The position numbers and the translations under genes were made by a program. Shown in pieces: positions 2,630-27,426 of a stretch of 27,487 nt of DNA. The notes under the pieces are model-generated. The model had not been told where the DNA came from. It searched no databases and saw nothing but the letters and a program-made list of their open reading frames with translations. Within the stretch, counting starts at the first letter, position 1, and each line of letters begins with the position of its first letter. Source of the DNA: a virus; IMG/VR virus record IMGVR_UViG_3300045258_000106, positions 1 through 27,487 of that record; one strand, written 5' to 3'.

Positions 2630-5600
2630 CTAGGCGTGCCCGCCGTAGCCCTGGACGAAGTAGTCGACGCTGCCGCCCGCCGTGGCCGTGCCGCTCGAGT
2701 TGCGGTGTTCCAGCTTGAAGTGCGTGCGGTCGCTCTCGGTGATGACGATGGTGCCGCCCGGCGAGAGCGACTGCCGCGCGGTGATCTGCACCGTCGGCGT
2801 CGCAACGAACGGCGAGACGTAGGTCACGACAAGATGCCCGGTGCCGTCGAGCACCTGGTCGCTGCCCTGCACGTTACGGAGCGGCAACTCCACCACCACG
2901 CGCGCTTCGTGGGTGCGCAATGTCGTCTGCAGGTCATAGAGCGCGCCGACCATGCGCCACTCGAACTTCTGCGCGGTGATGACGGTCGACTTCAGCGGAA
3001 ACCAGTCGAGCCACGTCGACCCATCCACCGAAACGCGCGCCTCGATATGGGCATCCCAGGCAGCAGACGTTCCGATAGCGAGCGGAACCGCAATCGCCAG
3101 CGGTATCCAAGTCGACATCATGTTGATTGCCGTCGTGCCGGCTTGCGCCAGCGGGTCTTGCGAGGCAATCGGCACCCAGTCGGCCATGAAGACGTTGGCG
3201 ATGAAGCTGCCATAGCCTTCGACGTAGGCGCTCATTGTCGCCAGCGTGTAGCCGCCCGGCCCGAGGTCCAGGCCCTTGAACACACGGCTGAGCGTCACTT
3301 GCTTCAGGGGCGACGGATCAACCGGCACGACGTAGCCGCCGCCGCCGCTAACGACGGCCGAAGCGACGGTAGTGCTGCCGCTTTCCCTGACGATGGTCAC
3401 GCCGTAGGTGTCGTCTGGCGCGGCGAGTGTCAGCACGTCGGCGGCGCGGGTGACATCGGCGCTCGTGGTGACGATAGGCGAGCCCATTGTCGGCGCTTGC
3501 ACGAGCTGCGGCAGTCCGATGCGCACGGTCACGTCCGCAGCAAGTCCACTAAAGGCGTGGAAATGAACCTGCTGGGTCACAAAGGCCGTCGCGGCATTGT
3601 TAAGGGTGCGCGTCAGGACTTTTTGCTGCGTCTTGAGCGCCGCCCCGGTCAACGGCAGGCTGACCGATTGAGTAAACACAAGCTGGCCGCCAACGTTGTT
3701 TTGCTCGACCACGAATTGCTGAAAGTTGATGTTGGTCAGGCTGCCGCCGACCAGCCGCATGTAAACCGATGCGGTCCAGACTTGGCCGGACAAGGCGGCA
3801 GCGTGCGTTGACGTGTCGAAAATGTGAACCTTGGTATCGTTGGCGGAAGGCGTGCCAAAGTAACGAATGTCGATATAGGGGATGCCGTCCTCGGTGCCGG
3901 TGCCAACAATCGTCCGGGTCACGTTGTTGGTTGTGGTGCCTATTGACCAGTTCGTCGGCGGGGTGCCGGGCGTGCCCGCGACCGCGCCGCCTGCCGAGGC
4001 ATTGCGGATCGAATTGGTCCGCGCCGGCTCGTTGAGCAGGCCGCGCAGCGCCCCCGTGGTCGGGCTGTAGTCGAAGCGGGCCACGTTGGTCGCCGCGCTC
4101 GCGAGCGCGGGCGTGCTGTTGAAAGACCAGCCGGTCGATGCGCGCGTAAGCGTTGCGCCAGCGGGCAGCGAAGCCCCGGTGAAGTCGTAGGCCACGTCGG
4201 GTATGTGCGAGCCGAAATTATAAACGCCGACTCTTGTGGGTGTCTGGTTGAGCGTGAGGCCACGGTCGCCGGGAAAGACGCCGGGCGGTATGACTTCGGG
4301 CACTAGCGGTGGCGGCATCCATAGTTCGTCGACGTTGTGATGCCACACGGCGCCAAGGTCGCCGGCCCACGCGGGCTCCTCGTGCCAGTCGAGGATGATG
4401 GTGCGTTCGGTCTGCTGGGGCTCGACCTCGATCTCGATCCAGTCGTCGCTCTCCTGCCCCAGGCTGTCGATGGCCTTGAGCAAATAGGTGCCATACCGGA
4501 TCGGCGTGTTGACCTGCGTGGTGTTGCGGTCGACCTGGGCAATCGAGGTGGTTGCGCGGCTCCATTCCGCGCCGCCGATGATGCCGGTGAACTTTATCCA
4601 GTAAAACACCACGTCGATTTCGCCGGTCGGCGTCCACAGCAGCGTGACCATGTTGCCGCCCTGCGGCGTGGCATAGAACCCGGTCGGGCACAGCGGCTTC
4701 GCGGACAGGCCGATAGGCACGAACGTCAGGCCGACCGGCGCCGAGTAGCGGCCCAGGCTGTCGAACGCCCGCAACCGCACCGTCCATTGCCCTTGGCGCA
4801 TGGCGGGCACTTCCTGCGTAATGCCCGCGATTGTGGTGAACGACCGATAGTCGCCGTTGGGGCCGCTCAATTCCATCTGGTAGCGCGTCACGCGCGGATC
4901 AGGCGATGCGGTCCACGAGATAATGACGGCGAATTGCGGCCGACCCGCACCGTCGAGATAGATGAACTCGGTGAAGCTGATATCGGACGGAGGGTAGATT
5001 GGGCCGGTCGGGATCAGGGAATGCGGCGGCTCGGGAATGTACCAGCCGTAATCAACGTAAGTGTATTTGTTGATGTCCCATTGCGTGGCGAGTACTTGGT
5101 ATTTTCCGCCGCCCGCGTCGGTCACGACAGCGACGCGCCAGTAGGTCGGCGCGATCTCGGTATTGGTGAGCAGCCACATCGTGCCCGCGTCGGCTCCGAC
5201 GGGTTTGCTGCTGACGCGGAACTGGGTGTCGGTTACCGCCGCGACGATGGTGGCGGCATAGAGACCGGGGTTCTGCCCTTCCGCCGCCGAGCCAAGCTGA
5301 AAATAAATCGTCCATCCGCCCATGTATTCCAGTGGATGCGGCGTCTTATCGAGCGTGATGGTATCGACCCCGGCATCGTGCAGCAGGCGGCCCGCGAGCC
5401 GTGCCCCGGCGCGGCTGGGATCGTTGATCGCGATCATTTCGCCCGGCCGGATGTTGGCGTTTTCGAGGCCGGTCTGAAACGACACCACCTCGGTCTCGTA
5501 CTGAGACGTGTAAATGAAATATCGGCCAAACCGGATGGCTTGCCCTCGGTTGGTGCAGCCGAAGGCCGATATCTGGGTTTCTTTGTAGCCCTGCTCCGCG

Positions 5601-22254: not shown

Positions 22255-23943
22255 CTAGATGACGAAGATGCTTTGGTCGCCGCCCTGCAACGACGCGGTG
22301 TAGCGGCCGATGGCCATAATGAGCGCCGTCATGCCGTCGATGCGGCCGATGCTGTGCTGCTTGTGCGGCATCTCGTTGAGGTTCTTGTCGCGCTGCACTT
22401 TCAGGTTCGACGCCATCACCGTCAGCACCGGATTGTTGCCGTGGTCGAGCTTGCGGCCCGATACGAGCGCCTGCAGTTCCTTGGTCGGCGCGGTGTAGGA
22501 GCGCAGGCCCTGGATGAACTCGACCATGTTGATGCCGTCCGCCGTAAGCTCGGTCGAAAGCTGCGTCGCGTTCCACGGATCGAAGGCGATGTCCTGCAGG
22601 TCGAAGTGCTTGCTGTCGCTCAAAACAGCCGCCTTGATCTCGGCGTGATCTATGACGTTCCCCGGCGTGACCTCGATCCACCCCTCGTCGACCCACCGGC
22701 GATAGGGCATCCGGTCCCGGTCGGCCCGTTCCTCGAGCGTGTCTGACGGCATCCAGAAGCGCGACGCGACGCGCATGATGCCTGCTTCGTCCGGCTCGAA
22801 CAGTTTGATGAACGCCGTGATGTCGATCTTACTCGACAGGTCGAGCCCGCCCCAGCACCGCGTGCGCTCCAGCTTGTCCGGGTCGAAGCGGCCCCGGCTG
22901 TTGCGCGCCCACGTCGCCATGTCGATGGCGGCCTCGGCCGACGCCGTGCGCACGTTGAGCCGCAGCCGCTTGAAGGCATTGAGCGCGCCCGGTGACTTGC
23001 CGGCCTTGCGCGCCTGCCGTTCGAGGTCGTCACGCTTGACGCTGATGCCGAGGTTGGGATTGGCCTTCGCCCAGGCGACGGGATCGTCCCAGCGGTCGCC
23101 CTTGTCGATGGTGGCGATGAAGGCGAACACGTCGTCGTCCTCGACCACGCCTTCCAGCACCTTGATGGCGTAGTCGTTTTCCGCGGCATAGACGCTCTCG
23201 GGACTGTCGTCGCCCGCCGTGGTGATGATCCACAGCAGCGGTTGCCGGCGGGCGCCGAGTGCCGTGTCCATCACGTCGAGCAGCGCGCGCGTGCGGTGGC
23301 GGTGAAGCTCGTCGACCAGCACGCAATGCGGGTTGAGGCCGTCGAGCGTGCGGTCGTCCGACGACAGCGGCTCGAACTTCGAGTTGGTGACATCGACCGA
23401 AAGGTTGAGCTTGAAGCGGCTGACCACGCGCAGCAGGTCGGGCGAGGTCGTCACCATGCGCTTGGCTTCGTCGAAGATGATGCGCGCCTGGTCGCGCTTC
23501 GTGGCGGCGGCGTAGATTTCCGCGCCGGGTTCGCCGTCGCACGTCAGCATGTCGAGGCCGACGCCCGCGAGCAGCGTCGACTTGCCGTTTTTTCTCGGCA
23601 GTTCGTCGTAGACGTAGCGAAAGCGGCGCGTGCCGTCGCGGCGCTTCCAGCCGAACACCGAGCCGACCACGAAGCATTGCCAGGGGCTCAAGTGCACCGG
23701 CTTGCGTGCCCACTCGCCCTTCGAGTGCCGCAGGAACCGCGCGTAGAAATTGATGCGGTGCTGGGCAACGTCGGGCCGCCATACCAGCCCGCGCTTGCGG
23801 CCTTGCTTCAGGTCGCGGAGGTGGCGCTGGCAGGCCAGCCGGACCAGCCGGCAGGCCACGATTTCCTTGGCGCATACCGCGCGCGCATAGGCGGTAGCGT
23901 CGTCAAGCGCAGGCGGCCCAGTAACCTTACGTTTCCGGGGCAT
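22255..23943 (-). CDS. terL: Terminase large subunit (Terminase_1/HK97 gp2 type)
   Basis: 562 residues. ATPase part: Walker-A-like ELPRKNGKST (about 114-123), Walker B CVLVDELH (207-214, Asp211/Glu212), and TTAGDD coupling motif (241-246). Nuclease part: GGLDLSSKID with Asp368, FDPWNATQL around 450, and IGRIDGMTALIMAIG near the end, all expected in RNase H-like metal-binding nucleases. It packages DNA with the small subunit at the portal. The start ATG 23943 has GGAG nine bases upstream. It is separated from terS by an opposite-strand operon, so it must be transcribed from its own promoter near 23944-24049 or by readthrough. Confidence 0.93.
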   Translation of the reverse strand: MPRKRKVTGPPALDDATAYARAVCAKEIVACRLVRLACQRHLRDLKQGRKRGLVWRPDVAQHRINFYARFLRHSKGEWARKPVHLSPWQCFVVGSVFGWKRRDGTRRFRYVYDELPRKNGKSTLLAGVGLDMLTCDGEPGAEIYAAATKRDQARIIFDEAKRMVTTSPDLLRVVSRFKLNLSVDVTNSKFEPLSSDDRTLDGLNPHCVLVDELHRHRTRALLDVMDTALGARRQPLLWIITTAGDDSPESVYAAENDYAIKVLEGVVEDDDVFAFIATIDKGDRWDDPVAWAKANPNLGISVKRDDLERQARKAGKSPGALNAFKRLRLNVRTASAEAAIDMATWARNSRGRFDPDKLERTRCWGGLDLSSKIDITAFIKLFEPDEAGIMRVASRFWMPSDTLEERADRDRMPYRRWVDEGWIEVTPGNVIDHAEIKAAVLSDSKHFDLQDIAFDPWNATQLSTELTADGINMVEFIQGLRSYTAPTKELQALVSGRKLDHGNNPVLTVMASNLKVQRDKNLNEMPHKQHSIGRIDGMTALIMAIGRYTASLQGGDQSIFVI

Positions 23944-24049
23944 TTATGGGACTCCGCAGGGTGCGACAGTCTGACCTATGGGCCATAAAGCTAAGGCCGA
24001 CCATATTAGTAAGACCGGCGGCGAACACCGCCCAGAAGGAGGCGATCAG
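23944..24049. promoter_or_regulatory. Divergent control region between terL and the small-gene operon
   Basis: Only gap from which both terL (left) and the rightward operon (right) can start. It contains the inverted repeat TATGG-G-CCATA (23977-23987) plus further TATGG at 23945-23949 and CCATA at 24001-24005, so the same pentamer occurs four times in about 60 bp. A short GGCGG/CCGCC hairpin precedes the AAGGAGG ribosome site at 24036-24042. No convincing sigma-70 box pair is visible. Operator sites for the operon's own HTH protein are a reasonable guess. Confidence 0.45.
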
Positions 24050-24238
24050 ATGACCATCCACGATGCCGCATCCATCCTCACCACAAAAGCCAAGGCCGAA
24101 GCTGCCCGCGCCATGCTGGCCGCGCTGAAAGCAATCCAAGCTGATCCAGCTTGGCACACGATGCCATCGGATACATGGGCGGTCGCCTCGCGCGCCATCG
24201 CCTTGGCTGAAGCCGCCGGCATCAAGGCGGAGGGCTGA
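24050..24238 (+). CDS. Small hypothetical, copy 1 of a paralogous pair
   Basis: 62 residues from ATG 24050, set by AGGAGG seven bases upstream; an in-frame ATG at 23978 lacks such a site. Translation starts MTIHDAASILTTKAKAEAAR and holds AMLAALKAI, WHTMPSDTWAVASRAIALAEAAGIKAEG. Helical, alanine-rich. The gene at 24485-24697 shares the AMLAALK and A.A.AEAAGIK parts and a 22-bp identical DNA stretch, so the two are duplicates. First gene of a rightward operon lying between the two terminase genes. Family unknown. Confidence 0.7.
   Translation: MTIHDAASILTTKAKAEAARAMLAALKAIQADPAWHTMPSDTWAVASRAIALAEAAGIKAEG
24108..24129 (+). repeat. 22-bp direct repeat, first copy (second at 24561-24582)
   Basis: Identical 22 bases encode AMLAALK in both copies of the paralogous small gene. 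Spacing of the copies is 453 bp. The remainder of the two genes has diverged, so the match marks either recent local gene conversion or strong constraint on this motif. Confidence 0.8.
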
Positions 24239-24244
24239 GCCATG
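24224..24244 (+). repeat. 21-bp gene-junction repeat, first copy (second at 24467-24487)
   Basis: The end of one gene, its TGA stop, the embedded SD (GGAGG-like, GCGGAGGG) and the next gene's ATG are base-for-base identical at 24224-24244 and 24467-24487. Since the flanking genes differ, the shared unit is the translation junction itself. Confidence 0.82.
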
Positions 24245-24481
24245 CTGCACTCATTCAAGGTCGGTGACCGCGTCAGGCTTGCACGGCCGGTTGACCGCTA
24301 CCCCGATTTCCTCGCGCCACAGGGCATGGTCGGCACCGTCCATGACGTTGCCGTTGACGGCTCCATCTCGGTGCAGATGGACGCGCCGCTAGAGGGTGCC
24401 GAAGACTGGGACAACTGCATCTGCTGGGATGACTGGCAGTTGGACGACCTCGCCCTCGACCTCGAAAAGGCGGAGGGCTGA
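24242..24481 (+). CDS. Small SH3/KOW-like hypothetical protein
   Basis: 79 residues, MLHSFKVGDRVRLARPVDRY then FLAPQGMVGTVHDVAVDGSISVQMD, the start pattern of KOW/SH3-barrel proteins (VGDRVRL...GTV...VxV). The C-terminal third is very acidic and has a Trp/Asp cluster (EDWDNCICWDDWQLDDLALDL). Acidic small proteins can mimic DNA or bind basic surfaces, which is of interest if the operon is anti-defence. The start follows the preceding stop by three bases, within a junction repeated before the next gene. Confidence 0.72.
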   Translation: MLHSFKVGDRVRLARPVDRYPDFLAPQGMVGTVHDVAVDGSISVQMDAPLEGAEDWDNCICWDDWQLDDLALDLEKAEG

Positions 24482-24484
24482 GCC

Positions 24485-24697
24485 ATGACCGACAAAGCCC
24501 GCGCTAGCGCAAACCGCCGCTGGGACAAGAAACAGGCCGACGCCAAGGATACCGCCGCCAGCGCCATGCTGGCCGCGCTGAAGGATACCGACGCGCATTT
24601 TCTGGCGTCTTTCGGGGCCGCGGCTTGGCAGCATAGCGAAGCCGCCAGGACGCTTCGCGCCGCCATCGCCCAGGCCGAGGCGGCAGGCATCAAGTGA
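24485..24697 (+). CDS. Small hypothetical, copy 2 of a paralogous pair
   Basis: 70 residues, Ala/Lys-rich and helical; translation starts MTDKARASANRRWDKKQADA and continues with AMLAALKDTDAHFLASFG and AAIAQAEAAGIK. The shared parts with the 24050-24238 product are AMLAALK and AEAAGIK. N-terminal part is more basic than in copy 1. The stop codon overlaps the HTH gene start (TGATG). Confidence 0.7.
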   Translation: MTDKARASANRRWDKKQADAKDTAASAMLAALKDTDAHFLASFGAAAWQHSEAARTLRAAIAQAEAAGIK

Positions 24698-24933
24698 TGA
24701 GCCAGAAACTTCTACAGGCCGCCGGCACCGTGCTGTGGGGACCGCAGTATCGCTCGGAGATGGCGCGCCAGCTTGGCCGCAACCTGCGGACGGTGATGCG
24801 GTGGGACTCCGGCGAACGCCCGGTCCCCAAAGAGGCGTTGTATCGGCTGGCCGACCTGCTCGCCCACCAGCGGGCCGCCAGCGAGAAGTTACAGGCCAAA
24901 CTTACCGCCGAAGCCGAACGCCGCGGTCAATAA
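24697..24933 (+). CDS. HTH DNA-binding protein (Cro/YdaS-like; Aca-like candidate)
   Basis: 78 residues from ATG 24697 (TGATG overlap with the preceding stop). Helix-turn-helix: YRSEMARQLGRNLRTVMRWD (18-37) followed by SGERPVPKEALYRLADLL, the usual arrangement of phage regulators of the YdaS/Cro type. The C-terminal ~20 residues form a charged helix (ASEKLQAKLTAEAERRGQ). It is the fourth gene of the rightward operon and the best candidate to autoregulate it through the TATGG/CCATA elements at 23945-24005. Length and position resemble anti-CRISPR-associated regulators, but that is inference. Confidence 0.8.
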   Translation: MSQKLLQAAGTVLWGPQYRSEMARQLGRNLRTVMRWDSGERPVPKEALYRLADLLAHQRAASEKLQAKLTAEAERRGQ

Positions 24934-24958
24934 ATTGTCGGCAAAGGTCAATGGGCGT

Positions 24959-24992
24959 CAGCCCCGCTCCGGGTAAAACGGACGCGGGGCTG
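24959..24992 (+). other. Strong RNA hairpin between operon halves
   Basis: CAGCCCCGC (24959-24967) pairs with GCGGGGCTG (24984-24992), and TCCG (24968-24971) pairs with CGGA (24979-24982) with one bulged C and a 7-base loop. No U tract follows, so it is not a classic terminator. It lies in the 107-bp gap between the HTH gene and the membrane-protein gene and could end or shield the first half of the mRNA, or regulate the downstream ATG about 48 bases away. Confidence 0.6.
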
Positions 24993-25040
24993 CTCCCGTG
25001 CCGGGGTCCAATTCAGGAGCCCCTATTTGGAGACGATCAA

Positions 25041-25202
25041 ATGCTCGACAACATTCCTGTGTGGCTGGCGGCGCTGCCGCCGCCGCTCAACGCGCCCGTC
25101 CTCATCGGCCACTTCTTCGGCTGGCAAGGCAGCGTCATCGCGGCCGGGATCGGCGCGGTGGTCGCTGGCGCGCTGGTCTGGATGCGCTCGGCCAGAACCT
25201 AG
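25041..25202 (+). CDS. Small single-pass membrane protein
   Basis: 53 residues, MLDNIPVWLAALPPPLNAPV then a transmembrane segment around GWQGSVIAAGIGAVVAGALV (28-47), ending WMRSART, a positive C-terminus that suggests N-out/C-in. GGAG occurs 8-11 bases before the ATG inside the start unit GGAGACGATCAAATG, which recurs before two other genes of the operon. Could be a holin-like, exclusion or pore-forming protein; nothing diagnostic is present. Too short for a normal cutoff in this frame. Confidence 0.62.
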   Translation: MLDNIPVWLAALPPPLNAPVLIGHFFGWQGSVIAAGIGAVVAGALVWMRSART

Positions 25203-25214
25203 GGAGACGATCAG

Positions 25215-25517
25215 ATGAAACTGCTTTTGTTGTCCGCGCTCGCCAGCACGCTGGTCGCCAGCGCATCGACCGCGCAAACGCTGCCCGATGCCGCGCCCAG
25301 AACGGAGCTAGGCGATGTCGCGACCTCAATGACGCGCGCTCGCGAAGCCCTGCTCAAGTTGGTCAAAGCGGTCGGTGGCAAATGCGCCGAACCAAGCGTC
25401 ATCTTCAGAGACCCGGCCGCTCCGATGGTCCTCGTCTGCGCCGATGGTTTTGCCTACTCGATGGACCACAACCCCAACAGTCCCACCGGCATCCGACGCA
25501 TCGACCAGCTACCGTGA
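25215..25517 (+). CDS. Small secreted protein with signal peptide
   Basis: 100 residues. Signal peptide at 1-~20 (MKLLLLSALASTLVASASTA|Q), then a helix (RAREALLKLVKAV) and a beta part with Cys57 and Cys75 that could form a disulfide: GGKCAEPSVIF...MVLVCADGFAYSMDHN. The mature protein should be periplasmic. Preceded by GGGAGACGATCAG, the same start unit as the membrane-protein gene. Last gene of the operon, 20 bases before a strong terminator. May act with the neighbouring membrane protein on the envelope, e.g. as a superinfection block; this is inference. Confidence 0.72.
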   Translation: MKLLLLSALASTLVASASTAQTLPDAAPRTELGDVATSMTRAREALLKLVKAVGGKCAEPSVIFRDPAAPMVLVCADGFAYSMDHNPNSPTGIRRIDQLP

Positions 25518-25537: not shown

Positions 25538-25569
25538 AAGCCCCGGCCTCACCGCCGGGGCTTTTCTTT
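25538..25569 (+). terminator. Intrinsic terminator of the small-gene operon (bidirectional shape)
   Basis: AAGCCCCGGC (25538-25547) pairs perfectly with GCCGGGGCTT (25554-25563), loop CTCACC. On the plus strand TTCTTT follows, a good T-tract. On the minus strand, read after terS (stop 25572), the stem is followed by a weak TTTGCGTT. So the element ends the rightward operon and may also end transcripts coming leftward through terS, isolating the cassette from the late operon. Confidence 0.85.
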
Positions 25570-25571
25570 GC

Positions 25572-26075
25572 CTACTCGTCGAGCTTGTCGGGCTTCTCGG
25601 CCAAGTAGGCTGCCAGCGGCGTGCCGGCGATCTGACCAGCGCGCCCGGCCGGCAGCGGTTCGCCGCGCCCAATGCTGGCGCGCGACGACGGACTGAAACC
25701 CATCTCGGCACCGGCCCGCAGCATGATAAGCGCCTGCCTGTTTACAATTGGCAGAAACGGATTTTGGATCGCGTTGCCTTCCTTCGTTTTGACCACCTGG
25801 CCGAGCTTGCGCACCTCCTGGGCGGCGCGGGCGTGCTCGATGCACGCCACCGTCCACACCACCAGCACCTCGCGGTCGGTCCCGGTCAGCAAGCCGGGCG
25901 AGGCGTTCTCGATGGCGTAGTGCCACTGCGCGCGCTGGTCGTCGTCAAACCATGCCGGCGGCGACCACAGGATGCCGACGCCCTCGGGTTCGTCATTCGA
26001 TGGCGGCAGCTTCGACGGATTGCCGTGCAGCAGTTTCAGATGCGTCGGCGTCGGCTTCGTCCCTCGCGCTCCCAT
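25572..26075 (-). CDS. terS: Terminase small subunit, P27 family
   Basis: 167 residues. Opening GTKPTPTHLKLLHGNPSKLPPSNDEPEG is typical of the P27 family, followed by helical DNA-recognition region (LLTGTDREVLVVWTVACIEHARAAQEV) and NPFLPIVNRQALIMLRAGAEMGFSPSSRASI, the family's C-terminal signature. Start ATG 26075 has GGGAGGCGACG directly upstream although it lies within the 3' end of the ParB-methyltransferase gene (83-bp overlap). Recognises the packaging site and loads the large subunit. Unusually separated from terL by an opposite-strand operon of ~1.5 kb. Confidence 0.9.
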   Translation of the reverse strand: MGARGTKPTPTHLKLLHGNPSKLPPSNDEPEGVGILWSPPAWFDDDQRAQWHYAIENASPGLLTGTDREVLVVWTVACIEHARAAQEVRKLGQVVKTKEGNAIQNPFLPIVNRQALIMLRAGAEMGFSPSSRASIGRGEPLPAGRAGQIAGTPLAAYLAEKPDKLDE

Positions 26076-27426
26076 CGTCGCCTCCCAATCGTTCGGCCCT
26101 GACCTCGACGAACGAGCGGCCGTCGCCCTCGAGCGTCGCGCTCTCGCCCGTGAAGTTCTGCCAGCGCATCACCGCGACGTCGACGTAGGCCGGGTTTAGT
26201 TCAATCGCGAGTGCCGTGCGCCCGCAGGTTTGCGCCGCGATGATCGTCGTGCCGCTGCCCACGAACGGGTCGTAGACCGTCTCGCCAGCGCGGCTGTTGT
26301 TGATGATGGGCCGCAGCATCGCCTCGACCGGCTTTTGCGTCGAGTGGCCGGTCTCTGACTTGTGCGGTTTGCTGATGTGCCAGAGCGTCGTCTGCTTGCG
26401 GTCACCCGCCCAATGCCCGGTAGCGCCTTTGCGTACCGCATACCAGCAAGGCTCGTGCATGTGATGATAATGCCCACGCCCGACAACCAGCGCGTCCTTC
26501 GCCCACACGACCAGCGCGCGCATCTCGAAGTTACACGAAACAAGGCTGGCCGCGACTATCGGGCTTTGGACATCTGCGTGCCAGACGTAGGCAACGTCGC
26601 CGGGGAACAGCGCCCACGCCTCGCGCCAATCCGCGCGGTCGTCGTTGCTCACTTTGCCGATGGCGCGGCCACCGGGTGTGCCACGCCCCATCGAGGCATA
26701 ACCAGCCCGCGCCGCATCGTTGCGCCAGTTCGCGTCATAGCTCACGCCATAGGGTGGGTCCGTGACCATCAGCAGCGGCTTGGCCCCGGCCAGGACGCGC
26801 TCGACGACCGGCGCCGAGGTGCAATCGCCGCACGCCAGCCGATGCTTGTCCAGCAGCCAGACGTCGCCCAGGCGCGACGCCGGAACAGCCGGCGGCTCGG
26901 GCACAGCGTCTGGATCAGTCAGCCCCGCCTTGATGGCGGCGCGCGCGAATAGCTCGCCAATCTCACCGTCCTCGAACCCGGTGAGGCCCAGGTCGAACCC
27001 GGCCTCCTTCAGGTCGCCCAATTCGAGCGTTAGCAGCGCGGCGTCCCAGCCGGCGTTGAGCGTGAGCTTGTTGTCGGCAATGACGTAAGCGCGCTTCTGA
27101 TTGTCGCTCCAGCCCCGCGCCACCATCACCGGGATCGTCGCGAGCCCGAGCCGCTGCGCCGCCAGCACGCGCCCATGACCGGCGATGATTTCGTCACGCT
27201 CGTCGACCAGCACCGGCATCGTCCAGCCCCACTCGCGGATCGACGCCGCGATCTGGGCAACCTGCTCCTCCGAATGCGTGCGGGCGTTGCGCGCGTAGGG
27301 AACCAGCGCGGCGAGCGGCCGGCGCTCGACCTTGTCGGCCGGCCAGCCTTGCGGATCGGCTTCTTGGGCCGCGACAGTGGCCGGTTTTTTGCCCCGTGTG
27401 GGGCCTCGACGCACCGGCTGGGGCAA
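25993..27426 (-). CDS. ParB-like nuclease domain / N6-adenine DNA methyltransferase fusion
   Basis: 477 residues from a TTG start with a strong AAGGAGG seven bases upstream; no ATG is available in the frame within the window. ParB-N domain at about 37-105 (PLAALVPYARNARTHSEEQVAQIAASI, then IIAGHGRVLAAQRLG with GHGR 83-86). Methyltransferase at ~200-425: DPPYGVSYD (223-231, catalytic) before DPFVGSGTT (386-394, SAM binding), i.e. beta-class order, with HSTQKPVEAMLRPI between. Last ~45 residues are acidic and Ala-rich. These fusions next to terS are common in alphaproteobacterial phages and probably protect DNA from host restriction; the ParB domain's role is unclear. Confidence 0.9.
   Translation of the reverse strand: MPQPVRRGPTRGKKPATVAAQEADPQGWPADKVERRPLAALVPYARNARTHSEEQVAQIAASIREWGWTMPVLVDERDEIIAGHGRVLAAQRLGLATIPVMVARGWSDNQKRAYVIADNKLTLNAGWDAALLTLELGDLKEAGFDLGLTGFEDGEIGELFARAAIKAGLTDPDAVPEPPAVPASRLGDVWLLDKHRLACGDCTSAPVVERVLAGAKPLLMVTDPPYGVSYDANWRNDAARAGYASMGRGTPGGRAIGKVSNDDRADWREAWALFPGDVAYVWHADVQSPIVAASLVSCNFEMRALVVWAKDALVVGRGHYHHMHEPCWYAVRKGATGHWAGDRKQTTLWHISKPHKSETGHSTQKPVEAMLRPIINNSRAGETVYDPFVGSGTTIIAAQTCGRTALAIELNPAYVDVAVMRWQNFTGESATLEGDGRSFVEVRAERLGGDDGSARDEADADASETAARQSVEAAAIE

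Follow-up and report, generated by a model that had tools for sequence, protein, structure and literature searches.

An exchangeable gene island between the terminase subunit genes of a phage group encodes a predicted Aca2-like DNA-binding protein and a putative leader RNA

What are six small genes doing between terS and terL of a phage, on the strand opposite to the late genes? The locus lies in a 27,487-base virus record, here called the window. A preliminary description had read it as one operon laid out like an anti-CRISPR (acr)-aca locus, with candidate defence inhibitors, a helix-turn-helix (HTH) protein and two envelope proteins that could be exclusion factors, and had allowed for an ordinary moron. 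On re-analysis the coordinates and strands held: six plus-strand ORFs occupy 24050-25517, flanked by minus-strand terL and terS, and all six were called as coding when a codon-usage gene finder was trained on the late genes. The G+C content of the island is 65.1%, against 65.7% for the phage. The features are as follows.

22255..23943, minus strand: TerL, terminase large subunit (TerL_nuclease E 2e-44, TerL_ATPase E 8e-38; Pfam/PHROG)
24038..24052, plus strand: ribosome-binding leader of o1, GGAGGCGATCAGATG; similar strings precede o5 and o6
24050-24238, plus strand: o1, 62 aa, Ala-rich, paralogue of o3
24226..24244, plus strand: junction repeat GGCGGAGGGCTGAGCCATG, copy 1, at the o1 end/o2 start, with the S-D sequence embedded in the last codons
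24242-24481, plus strand: o2, 79 aa, acidic, SH3-like
24469..24487, plus strand: junction repeat GGCGGAGGGCTGAGCCATG, copy 2, at the o2 end/o3 start
24485-24697, plus strand: o3, 70 aa, Ala-rich
24697-24933, plus strand: o4, 78 aa, HTH protein
24957..25043, plus strand: structured leader RNA, with hairpin 1 (24959-24992, 3′ bulge), hairpin 2 (~25003-25023), a ribosome-binding site and the o5 start codon
25041-25202, plus strand: o5, 53 aa, single-span membrane protein (one hydrophobic stretch)
25215-25517, plus strand: o6, 100 aa, predicted secreted (signal-like N terminus)
25538-25569, plus strand: predicted intrinsic-terminator-like stem with a T-run, closing the island; sequence common to L003-L007
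25572..26075, minus strand: TerS, terminase small subunit (Terminase_4 E 2e-11; phrog_83)

The reading of o5 and o6 as a membrane and a secreted protein followed by a terminator was thus borne out at the level of prediction. The single operon was borne out in part. Genes o1 and o2, and likewise o2 and o3, are separated by 3 b, and o3 overlaps o4 by 1 b; o5 follows only after a structured gap of 107 b, with o6 a further 12 b downstream. Because o4 and o5 are 107 bp apart, a one-operon layout is certain only for o1-o4, and the locus is better described as two units than as a six-gene operon: a coupled o1-o4 unit, and o5-o6 beyond a hairpin-rich leader. The 19-bp junction repeat occurs twice (0.02 copies expected) and places the ribosome-binding site of the next gene inside the codons for ..AEG-stop. 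No sigma-70 consensus promoter for the island was found in this region of the window.

A TerL scan gave 69 related viral contigs (L numbers), a second, profile scan added more, and for gene calls in these relatives we trained a simple caller on the window. Among close relatives, terS and terL range from overlapping to lying 4.1 kb apart. The TerL tree contains a fully supported clade of 31, 29 of which were scored: 17 carry an insert of 0.15-4.1 kb and 12 do not. In clade members without an insert terS and terL overlap, and in the outgroups they overlap or nearly so, bar one 258-bp gap. Whether or not an insert lies between them, TerS keeps its C terminus and TerL its N terminus. The insert is missing from this site in 12 clade members and nearly all outgroups and leaves the flanking genes intact, as expected of a moron or accessory island. 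Its cargo differs from phage to phage and is mostly oriented against the late genes; late-strand ORFs were called in the inserts of L016 (one), L034 (one) and L028 (three). The island of L003 has o2 in common with the window (91% identity) plus a distant o4, whereas that of L002 has o4 in common (78%) among different neighbours. At the DNA level, L002 matches the window from terL to 24049, in the first part of o4, at 24924-25043 and at the start of o6, and the L003 match inside the island is confined to o2. In many other islands, as in this one, the last gene encodes a small protein of membrane, secreted or lipobox type. We conclude that the slot belongs to one clade, that it runs counter to the late genes and that its cargo is exchanged gene by gene. 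Since the cargo is mosaic, mostly antisense to the late genes and variable among relatives, the six genes are not core genes; the preliminary description had anticipated variable cargo and named invariance as the finding that would tell against it, and invariance is ruled out by variable presence and cargo in the TerL clade. A foreign gene between the terminase subunit genes has been described in Burkholderia phage CSP3 (orf15; PMC10269572), but that is one ASCH-domain gene, whereas here a multi-gene, mostly antisense island is exchanged across a clade.

The usual first or early gene of these islands encodes a Lys/Ala-rich tail with a DUF3489-like winged-helix domain and is absent from the window, L002 and L003. 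Proteins of this kind, with the DUF3489-like part at the C terminus, occur in L004-L008, L010, L014, L016 and L018, and theirs is the first gene except in L014; the domain was Pfam-confirmed for L004 only (E 9e-23), the remaining relatives being assigned by eye. Examples lie at L004:3062-3469, L005:2749-3138, L006:1222-1623 and L007:5472-5810. L029, L030 and L034 encode a Lys/Ala-rich protein that appears similar to these.

The contigs of the closest relative, L002, and of four others in the TerL clade encode a tyrosine integrase, which supports a temperate lifestyle for the group; none is present in the window record, a 27-kb fragment. TerL relatives at 53-55% identity occur in Bradyrhizobium, Bauldia, Ferrovibrio and another alphaproteobacterial MAG, from which we infer that the hosts are probably alphaproteobacteria.

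The small proteins o1-o3 gave few clues. The claim that o1 and o3 are related held, their alignment score being reached in only 1 of 5000 shuffles, and two o1/o3-like genes directly precede the o4 homologue in a different phage, L074. For the acidic protein o2, the proposed SH3 likeness came down to sub-threshold SH3-type matches (SH3_15 E=3.6e-4). Searches of o1, o2 and o3 against Pfam, PHROGs and NCBIfam returned nothing over a curated cut-off, and no small ORF matched a known inhibitor or defence family in the Pfam, PHROG, NCBIfam and PADLOC libraries. More broadly, no protein encoded in the window's island could be matched to one whose function is known in the family libraries searched, and PADLOC detected no known defence system in the island, its only hit being a weak match of the o4 HTH to RmrA (E 3e-4). 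Inhibition of host defence is a possible, candidate role for o1-o3.

More could be said of o4. Compared over 55 codons with its L002 homologue it has 22 nucleotide differences, and since 15 of these are at third positions and only 3 amino acids change, o4 is under selection at the protein level. A profile of o4 and eleven relatives, searched against the PDB, matched only YdiL (1s4k, the best match, E 4e-5), four Aca2 entries (E 0.0017-0.0024) and, weakly, HigA2. As a control, a single-sequence search with an unrelated small Xre protein of L028 returned other HTH proteins and no Aca2. The predicted model of o4 (pLDDT 93.7) retrieved Aca2 in first place with Foldseek (TM 0.75, rmsd 1.8-2.1, E ~0.1), and AcrIF25, Aca2, SO3848, Aca10, YdiL, Aca1 and Aca7 with VIA-align (Z 6.5-8.3). 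For a helical protein this small, a Z of about 8 is modest, and fold alone would not decide; we accept the nearness of o4 to Aca2 and YdiL because profile and fold agree. The model also matches HigA2, which ranks below Aca2.

The likeness has limits. Against PF08965 (Aca2_YdiL), o4 scores 12.4 bits (E 0.18), below the Pfam cut-off of 23.8. It aligns to residues 1-73 of Aca2 only; its fold and its residues 20-70 match the Aca2 DNA-binding domain. Aca2 has a C-terminal dimerisation domain besides its HTH (PMC8434428) and in Pectobacterium phage ZF40 is 116 aa long; the 78-aa o4 is without that domain. The gene order, small ORFs followed by a small HTH gene (o1-o2-o3-o4), is that of the ZF40 acr-aca operon (PMC8434428), but the window contains no known Acr. 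YdiL, the best PDB sequence match of the o4 family, and SO3848 are encoded by chromosomal stand-alone genes (PMC8434428), unlike o4. In acr-aca operons the core promoter carries an inverted repeat that is conserved (PMC9410906); in the window no clear operator or promoter inverted repeat was found, the one weak candidate being GGCC-N10-GGCC at 23981-23998, with arms also present in L002. We conclude that o4 is, by sequence and predicted structure, nearest to an Aca2-like DNA-binding domain in a minimal, 78-aa form, short of a proven Aca. The acr-aca-like layout stands in its gene order and in the identity of its nearest HTH relatives; the promoter repeat is weak and the dimerisation domain is absent. 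Ahead of the first cargo gene of L003 (reverse complement of 3186-3330) lies a nearly perfect 20-bp palindrome, ATGTCTTAAATTTACGACAT, which may be an operator and has no counterpart in the window.

Phages of Acidovorax, Klebsiella, Mannheimia, Edwardsiella and Dinoroseobacter encode relatives of o4, as do 12 of 297 genomes sampled from one order; a first profile scan of genome contigs found none, nor did four host MAGs contain any. Klebsiella phage BUCT541 (L156:2269-2848) has a 68-aa gene and an o4-like HTH gene as a two-gene unit between opposite-strand genes, near the large terminase gene. An opposite-strand gene that looks, by eye, like DUF2493/SLOG lies near the o4-like HTH gene in L072, L073, L074 and L079.

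For o5 and o6, the evidence comes from position. In L004, L005 and L006 the gene that follows an o5-type leader encodes an Imm_superinfect protein (PF14373, E 4e-15 to 7e-16), and that of L004 also matches phrog_1039, 'immunity to superinfection' (E 1e-19). In T4, the proteins Imm and Sp prevent DNA from being injected (PMC11436027). The island resembles this kind of exclusion in having Imm-family proteins at the o5 position in three relatives, but o5 itself is unrecognisable as Imm: it has no match to PF14373, and its similarity to two Imm proteins is marginal (37 and 69 of 2000 shuffles reach the score), so that o5 as a diverged Imm is not established. Because of this marginal similarity, any functional link between o5 and Imm relies on position and leader; because Imm_superinfect occupies the o5 position in three islands, the earlier suggestion of exclusion factors gains weight. 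No family match was obtained for o6 in Pfam, PHROG and NCBIfam searches. We infer, from position, an exclusion function for o5-o6.

Taken together, we consider it fairly probable that the locus is a moron island serving superinfection exclusion and possibly counter-defence, in which o4 is an autoregulator and the leader tunes the second unit. The island would be an insertion placed precisely where terS meets terL, in a temperate phage group of probable alphaproteobacterial hosts. Genes o1-o4 would be expressed as one translationally coupled unit whose last product binds DNA and, by analogy with Aca2, limits its own operon. Genes o5-o6, standing where close relatives have Imm-type superinfection-immunity proteins, would be an envelope unit whose products modify the cell surface or membrane to counter rival phages, and the hairpin leader between the units would insulate or tune translation of the downstream cargo gene. 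The slot is a fixed site at which a phage group trades accessory, probably conflict-related genes, with tiny proteins of no known family tied to a superinfection-immunity position, and Aca2-like regulators extend to a minimal form in soil phages of probable alphaproteobacteria.

A true acr-aca locus, with o1, o2 and/or o3 as anti-CRISPR or counter-defence proteins and o4 as their Aca repressor, strikes us as rather unlikely. It would account for the gene order and for the closeness of o4 to Aca2, and also for the neighbourhoods of o4-family genes in other phages and prophages: a small same-strand ORF lies directly upstream of about 10 of 19, compared with a background of 22.6% among comparable genes, and an opposite-strand gene also follows in about 6 of 19, against 5.3%; the o4-family numbers were tallied by hand, on a set picked after the pattern was seen. 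These roughly ten partners are mutually unrelated, and several partner-HTH pairs are two-gene units set against their neighbours. However, the background of 22.6% means that small upstream ORFs are common in phages, no small ORF immediately precedes the o4-family genes of L072, L073, L079 and L080 (a tiny membrane gene follows the HTH gene instead), no inhibitor family was matched, and the promoter repeat is weak. Aca-like genes occur also without acr genes (PMC9410906). The partner in phage EPP-1, considered as a relative of AcrVA5, is a GNAT-like protein with only weak GNAT matches and no PDB link to an inhibitor.

We also doubt that the island is an ordinary moron of host-fitness genes, with no role in conflict and an HTH protein that only sets the expression level. 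That the slot is also occupied by DUF3489 proteins and others to which no conflict role has been assigned, and that most of the cargo has no known function, would fit such a view; the Imm_superinfect genes in three of the nearest islands and the fast turnover of cargo, typical of conflict genes, speak against it. Far less probable still is a toxin-antitoxin-like unit of o3 as toxin and o4 as HigA-type antitoxin. Aca proteins do resemble HigA (PMC9410906), and the o4 model matches HigA2 too, but HigA2 is outranked by Aca2, and o3 is Ala-rich, has a paralogue, o1, within the operon and matches no toxin family in Pfam, PHROGs or NCBIfam.

The gap between o4 and o5 is 93% identical to that of L002 and 80-84% identical to those of L004-L006. 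Five copies of the leader fold far more stably than shuffled sequences, with z of about -4 to -6, whereas L006:748-825, the sixth copy examined, is no more stable than its shuffles (z 0.02). Many island gaps share one design: a GC-rich hairpin in which a single base bulges out on the 3′ side and the upper stem varies, then a second hairpin and a ribosome-binding site, ending at the start codon of many cargo genes. The loop of hairpin 1 is of the GNRA type in 10 of 14 copies. A descriptor scan of 26.4 kb of island coding strand found 16 such hairpins, a few of which are not leaders, against 1.3 in shuffles and 4 in a control with the bulge on the opposite side; islands thus carry 0.606 per kb, compared with 0.036 in other sequence. 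The leader is absent before o1 of the window and from L003, L010, L029, L030 and L034. A covariance model recovered copies on which it had not been trained at L008:4123 (E 1e-9) and L018:3059 (E 5e-8), more weakly at L014 and L007, and further copies in the contigs of L073 and L079; it found none in the contigs of five relatives without an island (L015 having a 154-bp gap only). Across 19 copies, 97.1% of cells pair and 39 cells are changed on both sides, against 12.2 in shuffles, and the covariation score is 0.514 against 0.145 (reached in 0 of 500 shuffles; at most 0.125 when slid), with an alignment that was fitted to the model, which favours the score, and seed hairpins that were chosen by pairing.

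No Rfam family reached its gathering score; the best window match (E 0.058) was an sRNA on the other strand, and six relatives gave none at E 0.5. The leader hairpin thus appears to be previously undescribed. The nearest described analogue that we found is the SAS/ESAS of cluster K mycobacteriophages, likewise a repeated element with inverted repeats just before the start codons of non-structural genes (PMC3203893), but it differs in sequence, and the element here is a bulged, often GNRA-capped, covarying hairpin in other phages. We tentatively suggest that the leader is a new regulatory RNA family marking exchangeable accessory genes, read by a protein or the ribosome and giving cassettes of different phages a common control. 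A degenerate transcription terminator of the preceding gene seems a less likely identity: the leader does begin ~17-50 nt past the upstream stop codon, and unrelated phages have terminators made of similar AGCCCCGC stems with T-runs, but its copies have no T-run after hairpin 1, 16 of 17 island matches in relatives have their end no more than 4 nt from a start codon, the linker after the stem is recurrent and the bulge is preserved. If the leader is indeed a regulatory RNA, it could serve as bait for counter-defence and exclusion genes, an RNA signature by which more accessory genes are found without gene-to-gene sequence similarity.

Broader searches with parts of the leader were less specific. 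The hairpin 1 pattern, run across all of IMG/VR, gave extra matches that were mostly ordinary terminators, and the string AGGAGACGATCATG, considered as part of the motif, proved to be a common ribosome-binding site ahead of other phages' structural genes. The RNA model had one match among 199 genomes from the order to which a Bradyrhizobium MAG belongs, with 23 of the candidate places in each genome scored. One contig, L197, found through a single 18-mer, has four leader copies among small uncharacterised genes (L197:8515-11644), three of them with the same hairpin.

Two further features of the window were noted. ARAGORN called a tRNA-Leu (aag) at 4319-4402 within a long tail-tip gene, probably a false positive. 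On the minus strand, at 25993-27426 and overlapping terS by 83 bp, a gene encodes a ParB-type N-terminal domain fused to an N6/N4 DNA methyltransferase.
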